The notes beneath the pieces are model-generated. The model had not been told where the DNA came from. It worked only from the letters and a program-made list of their open reading frames with translations, and ran no database searches. The translations under genes were made by a program, and so were the position numbers. 47,901 nt of DNA, taken from assembly GCA_018715195.1 (NCBI GenBank), contig DVMA01000026.1, positions 1-47,901 of the forward strand, written 5' to 3'. The stretch is from Candidatus Coproplasma excrementavium. GTDB lineage: Bacteria > Bacillota > Clostridia > Christensenellales > Borkfalkiaceae. Below are positions 10,395 through 38,912 of this stretch, piece after piece; the first letter of the stretch is position 1, and each line of letters starts with the position of its first letter.

Positions 10395-10426
10395 AAGCTC
10401 CGCGCTTTATGCGCGGAGCTTTTTTA
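10395..10426. terminator. Bidirectional terminator
   Basis: AAGCTCCGCGC pairs with GCGCGGAGCTT, loop TTTAT, with Ts after and As before; it serves the plus-strand membrane protein and the minus-strand PRC-barrel gene, whose stop codon it overlaps. Confidence 0.88.
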
Positions 10427-10942
10427 TATCGTCTTCATCTGCGCCTGAAAGTACTCGCCCGCCTGCTCGGCTTTTTTAAGCGCTTCGCCAGTCAGAGCGG
10501 AGCCTTTTTTGAGTATTACTTCGCCGCTGGAATCTGTTACGTCCTCTTTCAGAACGCGGGCGGGGTGCACTATGATAACGTCGCCCGTGGTTATGTGTTC
10601 GGGGCGGAACTTCTTTTTGCCTATCACATAGTGTGCCGCCGCGCCGCTTCTGTCGGTTATTATCTCGGCAAGGTATCCCAGAAAGTTGCCGTATTCCGAG
10701 TATGCGGGCACGCCCAGCCGCATGTTTGTGCTCTGTTTTTTTATGGCGGGCCTGTCCTCGAACACAATTTTTTCGCCCGTGCATATAATGTTTTTAACAT
10801 CTATGTCAAATTCGCGCTCGTCGTCGTCAAAGCACTGCAAAAACTGCGGCGCGCCGTTTTTTGCCAGAATGCCGCGCACCCAGCCGTGAACCTGCCCGTC
10901 ATTGCTTTCAACCTCTTTTCCGTAAATTTCCGAAAGTTTCAT
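10424..10942 (-). CDS. PRC-barrel domain protein
   Basis: A 172-residue soluble protein. Residues 1-60 (MKLSEIYGKEV... followed by beta-rich sequence) and about 75-125 (RLGVPAYSEYGNFLGYLAEII) both look like PRC-barrel repeats, the small beta barrels found in RimM and in sporulation/electron-transfer proteins. The C-terminal third is charged and helical. Function unknown; related clostridial proteins are annotated only by the domain. GGAGGG precedes the ATG at 10942, which fixes the start inside a longer frame. Confidence 0.72.
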   Translation of the reverse strand: MKLSEIYGKEVESNDGQVHGWVRGILAKNGAPQFLQCFDDDEREFDIDVKNIICTGEKIVFEDRPAIKKQSTNMRLGVPAYSEYGNFLGYLAEIITDRSGAAAHYVIGKKKFRPEHITTGDVIIVHPARVLKEDVTDSSGEVILKKGSALTGEALKKAEQAGEYFQAQMKTI

Positions 10943-11095: not shown

Positions 11096-11226
11096 GCACG
11101 AGTCAGCTTTTGTTTTGTAGCGTTGTGGCGGCCATAACAGGCGGTGTGGCGCTTACTTGCTACAATTGTAACAAAATTGTTAAAAATTTTCATTTCTGAC
11201 CCGTTCAAAAAAAGTTTACACATAAC

Positions 11227-11255
11227 TTGACAGGTGTAAAGTTTCAGTGTAAACT
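11227..11255 (+). promoter_or_regulatory. nadB promoter with overlapping NiaR-type operator
   Basis: TTGACA at 11227-11232, 17 bases, TAAACT at 11250-11255. The -35 is part of TGACAGGTGTAAAG, which resembles the ACAGGTGT-type site I associate with the niacin-responsive repressor NiaR (YrxA) from memory. NiaR is encoded in the same operon, so autoregulated repression of NAD synthesis is likely. Confidence 0.6.
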
Positions 11256-11508
11256 ATGACTAACCTGAAAAGAAAAAGCGAGGGTGTATTGCCCGCGGGA
11301 AAATAATTCCCCATTCAGGCAGCTGCGCGAACAAGCGGGCGTCGGCGTATTACCGGCCTGCGCAGGCAGAAAACTTCTGCTGTCCGCGCGGACTGAACAA
11401 GGCAAATGGCGGCGTCGGCGTATTACCGGCCGGCAGGCTTTGTTCGGAACAGGGCAGGCTCGCGGGGTCGGTGTATTTCCGTCCGCACTCTGCCTGACTG
11501 AAATTTAC

Positions 11509-11538
11509 GCCGCGGCCCTTTTGCCGCGGCTTTTGCTT
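11509..11538 (+). terminator. Terminator-like hairpin inside the nad leader
   Basis: GCCGCGGC pairs with GCCGCGGC, loop CCTTTT, followed by TTTTGCTTT. It precedes nadB, so it would act as an attenuator. Confidence 0.55.
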
Positions 11539-11550
11539 TATATGCGCCGA

Positions 11551-11566
11551 TTGCGGCGTATGTGCC
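11551..11566 (+). repeat. Dispersed intergenic palindrome, copy 4 (in the nad leader)
   Basis: TTGCGGCGTATGTGCC, one base different from the core of the copies at 7685 and 30278 read on the minus strand. Confidence 0.6.
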
Positions 11567-11599
11567 TGAAACTTTACTTTGTGAACGGAGCGTTTGGTT

Positions 11600-12922
11600 A
11601 TGATTGAGCTTGAAAAGTATTACGACGTCATAATAGTAGGCGCCGGCGTTGCGGGTCTGAACTGTGCTCTCAATCTCCCGCGTGACAAAAAAATTCTGAT
11701 AATCTGCAAGGATACGCCCGACAAGTCGGACAGCTACCTTGCCCAGGGCGGCATATGCCGTCTTGTGGACGAGGACGACTACAAGGGCTATTTCGAGGAT
11801 ACGATGCGCGCGGGTCACTATGAAAACAATCCTGCAACCGTTGACTGCATGATTCGCAACTCCCAGGAGCTGATAGACGACCTCATTGCCTGCGGCGTAC
11901 GTTTTGCCCGCAACAGCGACGGCTCTCTGTGCTACACCAGGGAGGGCGGCCATTCCCGTCCCCGCATCTGCTTCCACGAGGATTGCACGGGCCGCGAAAT
12001 AACCACTCATCTGATGTCCGCCGTGCGCGCCTGCAGCAATATCTACGTAGTGCCCTATATAACTATGGTGGATATAATCTGCGATAAGGACAGGTGCTAC
12101 GGCATAGTGGCAAAGGACAGCAAGAGCGGCAGACTTTACAGACTGTTTGCCGACTACACCGTGCTCGCCTCGGGCGGACTTGGCGGCGTGTTTGAAAACT
12201 CCACCAACTTCCGCATACTCACCGGCGATGCGCTTGCAATCTGCCTCAACCACGGCATAGCCGTAGACCACATAAACTATATTCAGATTCACCCCACAAC
12301 GCTCTATTCAAAGGAAAAGGGCAGAAGGTTCTTAATCTCCGAAAGCGTGCGCGGCGAAGGCGCCGTACTGCTCGATAAAAATTTCCACAGGTTCTGCGAC
12401 GAGCTTCAGCCCCGCGACGTGGTGACGAAGAACATTCTCGCCCAGATGAAGAAGGACGGCACCGAACACGTATGGCTGGATATGCGTCCCATACCCAGGG
12501 AGGAGGTAATCAAACACTTCCCCGCAATAGTTCAGCGTTGCCTGGAAGAGGGGTACGATGTCTTCCGCGAGTGCGTGCCCGTAGTTCCCGCACAGCACTA
12601 TTTCATGGGCGGCATACGCTCCGACCTCGAGGGCAAAACGACGATGCCCAGACTGTACGCCGTAGGCGAAACGTGCTGCAACGGCGTTCACGGAGCAAAC
12701 AGACTGGCTTCCAACTCCCTGCTTGAAAGTTTAATCTTTGCAAAGCGTGCCGCAAAGGATATGACTGCAAACTATTCGCGCATAGACCTCAACGCCGCGG
12801 CGGAGGCAGAGCGCAAGCTCGACCTCACCAAATACGAAAACGTGCCCGCACTGCTCAAGAGCTATAAAAACGTAGTACTGAACGCTATCGAGGAGGCTCA
12901 ACGTGAACAACCACATCACTGA
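11600..12922 (+). CDS. nadB: L-aspartate oxidase
   Basis: A 440-residue FAD enzyme that oxidises L-aspartate to iminoaspartate, the first step of de novo NAD synthesis. It shows the FAD-binding GAGVAGLNC at about residue 14, the SYLAQGGI substrate loop, the FHEDCTGRE block near 130, SVRGEGAVL near 250 and the NGVHGANRLASNSLLE signature near 370. At 440 residues it is shorter than the usual 500-540; the C-terminal three-helix region is reduced, as in some anaerobe homologues. CGGAG precedes the ATG at 11600. It overlaps nadC by 20 bases. No nadA (quinolinate synthase) is found beside it. Confidence 0.93.
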   Translation: MIELEKYYDVIIVGAGVAGLNCALNLPRDKKILIICKDTPDKSDSYLAQGGICRLVDEDDYKGYFEDTMRAGHYENNPATVDCMIRNSQELIDDLIACGVRFARNSDGSLCYTREGGHSRPRICFHEDCTGREITTHLMSAVRACSNIYVVPYITMVDIICDKDRCYGIVAKDSKSGRLYRLFADYTVLASGGLGGVFENSTNFRILTGDALAICLNHGIAVDHINYIQIHPTTLYSKEKGRRFLISESVRGEGAVLLDKNFHRFCDELQPRDVVTKNILAQMKKDGTEHVWLDMRPIPREEVIKHFPAIVQRCLEEGYDVFRECVPVVPAQHYFMGGIRSDLEGKTTMPRLYAVGETCCNGVHGANRLASNSLLESLIFAKRAAKDMTANYSRIDLNAAAEAERKLDLTKYENVPALLKSYKNVVLNAIEEAQREQPHH

Positions 12923-13760
12923 AAAACTGCAAGCCGACGAGCTTATAAAACTGGCCCTCAGGGAGGATATCTCCAATGAGGACGTAACCACCAACGCCGT
13001 CATGCCCGAATACAGAAAGGGTACTGTCGACCTCATCTGCAAACAGAGCGGCGTAATCTGCGGCCTCGGCGTGTTTGCGCGCACATTTACGATTCTCGAC
13101 CCCGAAACTGATGTCGAGCTTTTCAAAAAGGACGGCGACGAGGTGGAAAAGGGTGAGCATATTGCCAAAGTCACGGGCGACATACGCGTGTTGCTCTCTG
13201 GTGAGCGCACCGCGCTCAACTATCTGCAAAGAATGAGCGGCATAGCCACCTATACCCGCCGCGTGGTAAAACTTCTCGAAGGTTGCAAAACGCGCCTGCT
13301 CGATACCAGAAAGACCACGCCCAATATGCGCATATTTGAAAAGTATGCCGTAAAGGTTGGCGGGGGAGTAAATCACCGCTACAATCTTTCGGACGGAATT
13401 CTGCTCAAGGACAACCACATAGGTGCTGCTGGCAGCGTAACGGCAGCCGTAAAGGCCGCACGCGAGTATGCTCCATTCGTGCGCAAGGTGGAAGTGGAGG
13501 TGGAAAACCTCGATATGGTGCGCGAGGCTCTTGAGGCGGGCGCAGATATCATTATGCTCGACAATATGTCCGTAGAGGATATGACTGCCGCGGTGAAGAT
13601 GATTGACGGCAGGGCTGTCACCGAAATAAGCGGCAACGTCACCGAGGCGACTATTCCTTCCATAAAAAAGGTAGGCGCCGACTATGTATCCAGCGGCGCG
13701 CTCACCCATTCTGCACCCATAATGGACCTGTCGCTTAAAAATCTGCACCCCATAGACTGA
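12903..13760 (+). CDS. nadC: Nicotinate-nucleotide pyrophosphorylase (quinolinate phosphoribosyltransferase)
   Basis: A 285-residue enzyme converting quinolinate and PRPP to nicotinate mononucleotide. The N-terminal domain carries LREDISNEDVTTNAV, and the barrel carries the signature DTRKTTPNMRIFEKYAV, GGGVNHRYNLSDGILLKDNHI, and the late EVEVENLDMVREAL and LDNMS phosphate-binding blocks. Length is normal. It starts with GTG, preceded by GAGGAGG located within nadB, so the two genes are translationally coupled. Confidence 0.95.
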   Translation: MNNHITEKLQADELIKLALREDISNEDVTTNAVMPEYRKGTVDLICKQSGVICGLGVFARTFTILDPETDVELFKKDGDEVEKGEHIAKVTGDIRVLLSGERTALNYLQRMSGIATYTRRVVKLLEGCKTRLLDTRKTTPNMRIFEKYAVKVGGGVNHRYNLSDGILLKDNHIGAAGSVTAAVKAAREYAPFVRKVEVEVENLDMVREALEAGADIIMLDNMSVEDMTAAVKMIDGRAVTEISGNVTEATIPSIKKVGADYVSSGALTHSAPIMDLSLKNLHPID

Positions 13761-13856
13761 CCCGAAGTCCGCTGTTTCTAAAAAATTCTGTGTCTGAAAG
13801 CGGTGGCAAAGTGTCATTTTTTTCAGCCGCGAAAGGCGTGAATTTTTGGTTTGAAC

Positions 13857-13879
13857 GGGGCATATGTGGCGGTCAATTT
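13857..13879. repeat. Dispersed intergenic palindrome, copy 5
   Basis: GGGGCATATGTGGCGG followed by TCAATTT, between nadC and niaR; close to the copy at 37620. Confidence 0.5.
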
Positions 13880-13922
13880 GTATTTTTAAAGCTGTATTAT
13901 TTACGGGAGGTAAATCCTTAAA

Positions 13923-14435
13923 ATGAAAGCTGATTCAAGGAGGAAGGAAATCCTCGCAATAGTCGGCAACAGCGATAACCCTCTGCCTGCGGGGGTGCTC
14001 GCCGAAAAGCTGGGCGTTTCCCGCCAGGTAATCGTGCAGGACATAGCCATTCTGCGCGCAAACGGGTACGATATAATTTCTACCAACCGCGGATATCTTC
14101 TCACTTCGCAAAAGAGCAACGCAACCCGCGTTTTCAAGTGCCGCCATACCTTTGAGCAGATTCTCGATGAGGGTTATCTGATAATAAATCTTGGCGGCAG
14201 AATAGAGGATATCTTTGTAAATCACCGCGTATATGGCCGAATTGCCGCAAGGCTTGAGCTGTACAACAACACCCACGTGGAGGAATTGTACCGCTCTCTG
14301 GTAAGCGGCGCGTCAAAGCCGCTCATGGCCGTAACCGACGGTTATCATTACCATACGGTGTCCGCACCCGACGAGGCCACTTTGGATAAAATAGAAGTTG
14401 CCTTGCGCAAGGCGGGGTATCTTATCGAAATTTAA
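13923..14435 (+). CDS. niaR: Niacin-responsive transcriptional repressor NiaR (YrxA type)
   Basis: A 170-residue regulator: an N-terminal winged helix of the HTH_11 type (residues about 7-62, with VLAEKLGVSRQVIVQDIAILRANGYDI) followed by a 3H domain named for three conserved histidines, seen here in KCRHTF, VNHRVYG and DGYHYHTV, which bind a metal and nicotinate. In Firmicutes NiaR represses NAD synthesis and niacin uptake when nicotinate is plentiful. Its place after nadB-nadC and the NiaR-like site at the nadB promoter support this role. GGGAGG precedes the ATG. Confidence 0.9.
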   Translation: MKADSRRKEILAIVGNSDNPLPAGVLAEKLGVSRQVIVQDIAILRANGYDIISTNRGYLLTSQKSNATRVFKCRHTFEQILDEGYLIINLGGRIEDIFVNHRVYGRIAARLELYNNTHVEELYRSLVSGASKPLMAVTDGYHYHTVSAPDEATLDKIEVALRKAGYLIEI

Positions 14436-38733: not shown

Positions 38734-38754
38734 ATATGAGAAAATTAAAGTAAG

Positions 38755-38886
38755 TTCTTTGGGGCGGGGTGCAATTCCCCACCGGCAGTGAGTGCCTAGT
38801 TGCGGCATAAGTCTGCGAAGAAGGGTTTTCCCTTCCCGATACGGTGCAATTCCGTAACCGACGGTATAGTCCGGATGGTAAAAGAA
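38755..38886 (+). ncRNA. FMN riboswitch (RFN element)
   Basis: All conserved RFN segments are visible: GGGGCGGGGTGCAATTCCCC, ACCGGCAGTGAG, GCGAAG, CCCGATACGGTGCAATTCCG, AACCGACGGTATAGTCCGGATG. The closing helix pairs TTCTTT with AAAGAA. Binding of FMN should favour the terminator downstream and switch off the riboflavin transporter gene. Confidence 0.97.
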
Positions 38887-38912
38887 TTTTTTTATCACAA
38901 CCGCTTTTTATG

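Follow-up and report, generated by a model that had tools for sequence, protein, structure and literature searches.

In the lambda boxB, BglG/LicT RAT and LoaP dfn systems, a short hairpin with a conserved tip lies upstream of a terminator, a protein reads it and polymerase passes. Rfam includes both the NAD+-I and the NAD+-II classes. In the published descriptions, the pan motif consists of simple bulged stems, usually in tandem, before a vitamin or coenzyme operon, with two conserved bulged A residues (PMC2864571), and NAD+-I (the nadA motif) consists of tandem bulged stem-loops before an NAD synthesis gene; its bulge, ACANCCCC, is 8 nt long, and its second domain contains a putative ribosome site (PMC7297122). 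The loops of mini-ykkC read ACGR, and its small, repetitive hairpins once led to the view that it binds a protein (PMC2864571); the motif has since become the guanidine-II riboswitch, in which a loop-loop contact dimerises the two stem loops (PMC5486947). By analogy, mini-ykkC serves as a caution that repeated hairpins can bind small molecules.

We analysed a window of 47,901 nucleotides (the whole of the stretch from contig DVMA01000026.1 of Candidatus Coproplasma excrementavium, assembly GCA_018715195.1), in which an array of hairpins precedes nadB, nadC and a niaR-type gene. The element is a real and conserved RNA that has no Rfam family and belongs by its features with the tandem-hairpin, probably cis-regulatory leaders; it is nearest in style to the pan motif and NAD+-I. 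In contrast to the two bulged A residues of pan, its units have a single 5' GN bulge; their loop, GUAYU, is constant, they number up to five, a terminator follows them and the pathway is another one. What sets them apart from NAD+-I is the short bulge (2 nt, GN), the conservation of the loop and the presence of a terminator, and the ACANCCCC bulge is absent from all 50 units known to us. With mini-ykkC they share small repeated hairpins with the same conserved loop, but the loop is YGUAYUN, a bulge G is present and there are 2-5 hairpins rather than two. These protein-dependent antitermination hairpins of lambda, BglG/LicT and LoaP are not known to have the tip of the nadB leader, which occurs in two to five copies. 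The tip may bear some likeness to the lambda boxB pentaloop, and its UAY to tyrosine codons. The features of the locus are as follows.

11211-11244, + strand: operator-like inverted repeat AAAGTTTACAC / GTGTAAAGTTT (arms 11211-11221 and 11234-11244), overlapping the promoter; presumed NiaR site
11227-11255, + strand: promoter (TTGACA, 17 nt, TAAACT)
11278-11296, + strand: unit 1; stem GC/GC, bulge GA (11280-11281), GGG/CCC, loop TGTATTG (11285-11291); 31.1 bits with model R2
11335-11361, + strand: unit 2; 6-bp stem, bulge GT (11341-11342), CGG/CCG, loop CGTATTA (11346-11352); 34.7 bits with R2
11393-11447, + strand: unit 3 with an 11-bp outer stem (11393-11403 / 11437-11447); bulge GT (11414-11415), CGG/CCG, loop CGTATTA (11419-11425); 35.1 bits with R2
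11462-11486, + strand: unit 4; 5-bp stem including one G-U, bulge GT (11467-11468), CGG/CCG, loop TGTATTT (11472-11478); 35.5 bits with R2
11509-11540, + strand: intrinsic terminator; stem 11509-11530 with 8 G-C pairs and a loop of 6, tail TTTTGCTTTA
11600-12922, + strand: nadB, L-aspartate oxidase (NF004820 equivalog over cut-off; TIGR00551 nadB below cut-off)
12903-13760, + strand: nadC, quinolinate phosphoribosyltransferase (TIGR00078 over cut-off)
13923-14435, + strand: niaR-type regulator, HTH_11 plus 3H domain (PF08279 and PF02829 over cut-off)

NiaR is described as a niacin-responsive repressor of the Bacillus/Clostridium group (PMC7713382). Because the operon encodes an HTH_11 plus 3H protein, the repeat at the promoter is presumed to be a NiaR site. 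The promoter is retained in array leaders as well as in the array-less nadB leaders that were read, and nadA lies on a different contig from the nadB-nadC operon. The gap between nadC and niaR measures 77-422 nt in eight array-clade loci (13761-13922 in the window; L170-L175 and L183), and no shared element was seen in these eight gaps; in five sister loci (L176-L180) niaR directly abuts nadC.

An earlier note, made from the letters of this DNA, had described four tandem hairpins with a constant tip on stems that vary and still pair, and both observations hold. Exact matches to GGYGTATTNCC are found in the window at 11283, 11344, 11417 and 11470, all on the + strand, and at no other position. 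Whole-window shuffles contained 0.20 matches on average and never reached four (0 of 100), and when the leader was resampled 20,000 times with a first-order Markov model, no core appeared in 19,990 cases, one in 10 and two or more in none. Chance, against which the earlier note had suggested a random-shuffle check, is thus excluded as the source of the four cores. Each core forms the tip of a hairpin with a 2-nt 5' bulge (GA, GT, GT and GT in order) under a 3-bp inner stem. The stems below the four tips differ in sequence, yet pair, and together with three units from the relative G097 they covary. The outer stem of unit 3 pairs at 11 of 11 positions, two of them G-U, just as had been read with G-T pairs allowed. 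The single-sequence fold of the leader region is only modestly more stable than that of shuffles (z -1.96), so the support for the structure is comparative. The note had also claimed a fifth related hairpin just before nadB. A hairpin is indeed present there (11540-11561), but it has neither the loop nor the bulge and the unit models are silent on it; it is therefore not a fifth unit.

Across relatives we collected 50 units in 15 leaders (five in one leader, four in four, three in nine and two in one), picked by GG.GTA..NCC plus flanks, so that those letters are invariant by construction. In the consensus unit a variable stem leads to a 2-nt 5' bulge whose first base is an invariant G and whose second may be any base; above it come three base pairs and the loop YGUAYUN. 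Among the letters outside the pick pattern, the bulge G is present in 50 of 50 units, loop position 1 is C or T and loop position 5 is T or C in all 50, and loop position 6 is T in 49, which gives YGUAYUN in 49 units and YGUAYAN in one. At the second position of the bulge all four bases occur (T 18, A 17, C 9, G 6), and the bulge is 3 nt long instead of GN in four of the 50 units. At the ends of the loop (Y1-N7; n=50) the pairs are U-U 20, U-G 17, C-A 10, U-A 2 and C-G 1, that is, a wobble-type mismatch in 47 of 50 against 32.3 +- 2.5 in shuffles; the association of C with A is significant (P = 7e-8, Fisher's exact test), a value inflated by shared descent. Given these wobble-type ends, the tip is better read, from the aligned letters, as a GUAYU pentaloop that a wobble mismatch probably closes; beneath it lie two G-C pairs and one variable pair.

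Pairing was counted on 46 of the 50 units, leaving out those with an apparent three-base bulge and exact duplicates. Paired cells amount to 83.8% compared with 63.2% in shuffles, cells changed on both sides to 83 compared with 33.0, and the covariation measure to 0.493 compared with 0.155 in shuffles and at most 0.162 in slid registers; many of the units are related by descent, and these counts are not independent events. One further measure, the number of pairs that show changes on both sides, gave no excess over the shuffles for the same 46 units (316 of 500 reached the observed value). Within orthologous unit positions double changes are fewer, but present. In the unit stems G-U outnumbers A-C by 24 to 9, against 30.2 to 25.2 in shuffles, an excess that fits an RNA of the + strand. 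In full leader folds the predicted pairing of the units ranges from 0.0 to 0.99. The third hairpin in the leader of L054 (genome G132) is a decayed unit, in which the hairpin is retained and the loop reads CTTGTTG, which suggests redundancy among units.

To follow the array in relatives, as the earlier note had proposed, we used a covariance model (R1) built on seven units, four from the window and three from G097. The assembly of the window is 1.45 Mb in size and 91% complete, and carrier genomes are 75-96% complete. Clustered units were found with R1 in 15 of the 93 genomes of the genus, with compensatory changes in their stems, and in all 15 the cluster lies between the promoter and nadB; records of Candidatus Coproplasma avistercoris and Ca. 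Coproplasma stercoripullorum are among them. At E<=0.1 this search matched 27 of 93 genomes, the 15 arrays and 12 single matches against 9.3 expected, and the loci of two of these 12 (L057 and L059) were read. In the family, R2 at E<=0.05 matched 41 of 398 genomes, namely the same 15 and 26 others (about 20 expected), none of the 26 being clustered; of the 11 loci read among them, ten overlap long reading frames and one, L100, is an intergenic single hairpin. In the order, the search at E<=0.003 matched 10 of 396 genomes, the window's own, G097 and eight others, in excess of the 1.2 expected; the eight others were all read (L092 included) and rejected as arrays, since every one is single and overlaps a long reading frame. 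These searches scored the best candidates per genome (82 in the genus, 18 in the family and the order, 150 within carriers), so that units which score lower or deviate may have escaped them. A pattern of three units, which sees neither two-unit arrays nor other loops, found 39 stretches in a genome collection of 84,980 species, and the model confirms arrays in 8 of these 39, all among the 15 carriers; viral contigs gave 0 matches.

In a tree of NadB with 33 rows the 15 carriers form one clade (support 100/95), and their NadB is 82-91% identical to that of the window, whereas the other 74 genus genomes with a NadB match reach at most 80%. Wide occurrence in relatives is therefore not supported at the level of genus, family, order and 84,980 species, and the array appears, on the sequences searched, to be confined to one clade of one genus of gut Clostridia. 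Elsewhere in the carriers, units occur at chance level (E<1: 15 matches in the 15 genomes). The genome of the window also holds ten further exact matches to the core, which were likewise set aside as chance, a reversed control pattern giving 13. Three array-less sister loci (L150, L151 and L154) bear a small GGACGG...CCGCCC hairpin before nadB that has no GUAYU loop; judged by its sequence, it could be a source from which the units grew.

The array is followed by a terminator. A terminator-like stem had been noticed earlier at this place, and it is confirmed at 11509-11530 with a T-rich tail and by an equivalent in 15 of 15 array leaders, although a terminator scan of the window alone is weak (two sites compared with 1.2 in shuffles). 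None of the 24 array-less nadB leaders scored has a terminator (0/24 against 15/15), so array and terminator occur together. The 24 were placed by script from a sample of 28 array-less relatives (20 + 8); L165, L166 and L169 were placed later, stand outside the test by the terminator rule and also have short leaders, and L168 was not placed. The array-less relatives keep the promoter and the repeat, and their leaders are short. Terminators of all 15 carriers have at least 8 G-C pairs, a number reached by 0 of 300 resampled array leaders, of which 14 have a terminator by a looser rule. The leader thus combines compensatory paired structure with a fixed position between promoter and nadB and a terminator platform (15/15).

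The terminator helix has a probability of 1.0 in 14 of the 15 folded leaders; the full fold of L056 has no terminator. When the RNA is cut before the 3' arm of the terminator, strands of the units hold more than half of the pairing of the 5' arm in 6 of 15 leaders (L015, L049, L054, L055, L056 and L062), with the unit and the strand differing among them, and in most of the remaining truncated leaders the 5' arm pairs with other parts. No shared antiterminator was found among the 15 carrier leaders in full and truncated folds, and the lack of a common partner of the 5' arm argues against one conserved refolding switch. In single species, competition for the terminator by unfolded units is possible according to these folds. 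A long-range pairing of GGCGTA loops with TACGC/TATGC before the terminator is seen by eye in many leaders and was rejected because the changes are not compensatory. A leader peptide was also rejected among the leaders read, as the short frame of L015 lacks a start codon in L050 and is shifted to another frame in L049.

The leader had been called undescribed, and this agrees with our comparisons. No Rfam family matches it at the gathering threshold, and at E 10 the region 11200-11620 gives no riboswitch, while four sRNA models match weakly, each scoring far under its gathering threshold, and are of no use. The leader was not found in print in the open-licence literature, which is a weak check, and the 224 motifs of Weinberg 2017 were compared via Rfam only. 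We also searched for proteins that might read the tips. CsrA was found in 0 of 15 carriers (75-96% complete) and by the same search in 3 of 14 control genomes, and the BglG/LicT domain CAT_RBD in 0 of 93 genus genomes and 4 of 14 control genomes. A second NusG (LoaP-type) was never found in the 93 genomes, 87 of which have one NusG match and 6 none. An ANTAR protein occurs in 2 of 15 carriers and in 0 of 14 control genomes, so that this search has no positive control. All of these counts come from incomplete genomes.

Of the second, RNA-level control that the earlier note had proposed, the conserved structured leader with a constant tip, the compensatory stems, the terminators in 15 of 15 and the promoter with its operator-like repeat stand. 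A conserved leader and terminator downstream of such a promoter suggest an RNA-level layer besides the presumed repressor. Because units do not occur elsewhere in the carriers beyond chance, the array most likely acts in cis on one operon, and because the terminator precedes nadB, read-through would be the control point. Conserved tips restricted to cis with no shared antiterminator favour a factor that would recognise the repeats and influence termination. We therefore give an about even chance to the reading that the leader is a cis-acting attenuator of nadB-nadC(-niaR), in which a trans factor, most likely a protein, reads the tips and alters read-through. Transcription would start at the promoter overlapped by the operator-like repeat, presumably under NiaR control; polymerase would run through the array and by default stop at the terminator. 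The trans-acting factor would bind the repeated tips on the nascent RNA and change how often RNA polymerase reads through into nadB, and the copies, unequally spaced, may serve to raise avidity or to grade the response to dose rather than to set up a fixed geometry. The anatomy, covariation, position, terminator sequence and single clade are direct observations; we infer that a factor binds, in which direction it controls, that transcription stops by default and that read-through is the step affected. A bolder form of this reading, which we consider unlikely, is that the array is the platform of an undescribed antitermination system, where a protein of the clade, perhaps an enzyme or regulator of the operon, would load on the GN-bulge/GUAYU tips and let polymerase pass with no RNA antiterminator.

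By sequence alone, a protein site and an aptamer would look alike. It is conceivable, if somewhat unlikely, that the array is a multi-aptamer riboswitch, each tip or pair of tips binding a small molecule of NAD metabolism (NAD+, quinolinate, nicotinate mononucleotide or aspartate) and thereby altering termination. The position before an operon of NAD synthesis speaks for this; mini-ykkC / guanidine-II shows that a riboswitch can be made of simple hairpins in tandem, and NAD+-I itself consists of two tandem bulged stem-loops (PMC7297122). However, few nucleotides are conserved per unit, the spacing is unequal with 2-5 copies, only one clade has the array, and even at E 10 Rfam yields no riboswitch match; a guanidine-II-like loop-loop pairing is not obvious either, because the loop shows no clear self-complementarity.

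Repeated hairpins with near-identical tips between an own promoter and terminator could also yield a terminated transcript that is a small RNA in its own right, a CsrB-like sponge for an RNA-binding protein, with nadB reached by read-through only. We regard this as improbable, since CsrA is missing from the search results of all 15 carriers, single units that might be mRNA targets are not in excess elsewhere in these genomes, and the array is tied to nadB in 15 of 15. The repeats might alternatively act as DNA, as extra repressor half-sites downstream of the promoter, because the loop GGTGTATT resembles the operator GGTGTAAA and both contain GGTGTA; this is very improbable, as the likeness is lost in the C-type loops GGCGTATTACC and the compensatory stem changes and G-U excess point to single-stranded RNA. 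That the array is a functionless spreading repeat (a selfish hairpin or a local duplication) is scarcely credible: loop types tend to agree within a leader (L016, L048, and units 2-3 of L015), which may reflect local duplication or conversion, and one L054 unit has decayed, but across 50 units the bulge G and the loop persist while the stems change in a compensatory way, units are not beyond chance elsewhere in carriers, and the terminator accompanies the array in 15/15 against 0/24.

If the attenuator reading is right, the RNA controls known for NAD synthesis gain an element that has no Rfam model, and in a single clade an operon that presumably has a repressor site would bear a further layer made of RNA, the array and the terminator being present jointly in every case. 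How the array was gained can be studied in the close relatives with short leaders. If a protein reads the tips, it would be neither CsrA nor a BglG/LicT-type protein nor a second NusG as far as the genomes show, and a new RNA-binding factor may await.

The intergenic hairpin L100 lies in another genus (genome G319) and stands alone, with the core GGTGTATTGCC and no array. Upstream of the operon, a divergent gene of about 170 aa (10424-10942, - strand) has no Pfam match in its 172-aa form and no NCBIfam match in its 193-aa form, and similar genes lie upstream of nadB in other array loci (L171-L175). The sole Rfam match at the gathering threshold in the window is an FMN riboswitch (RF00050, 107 bits) at 38751-38890 on the + strand.
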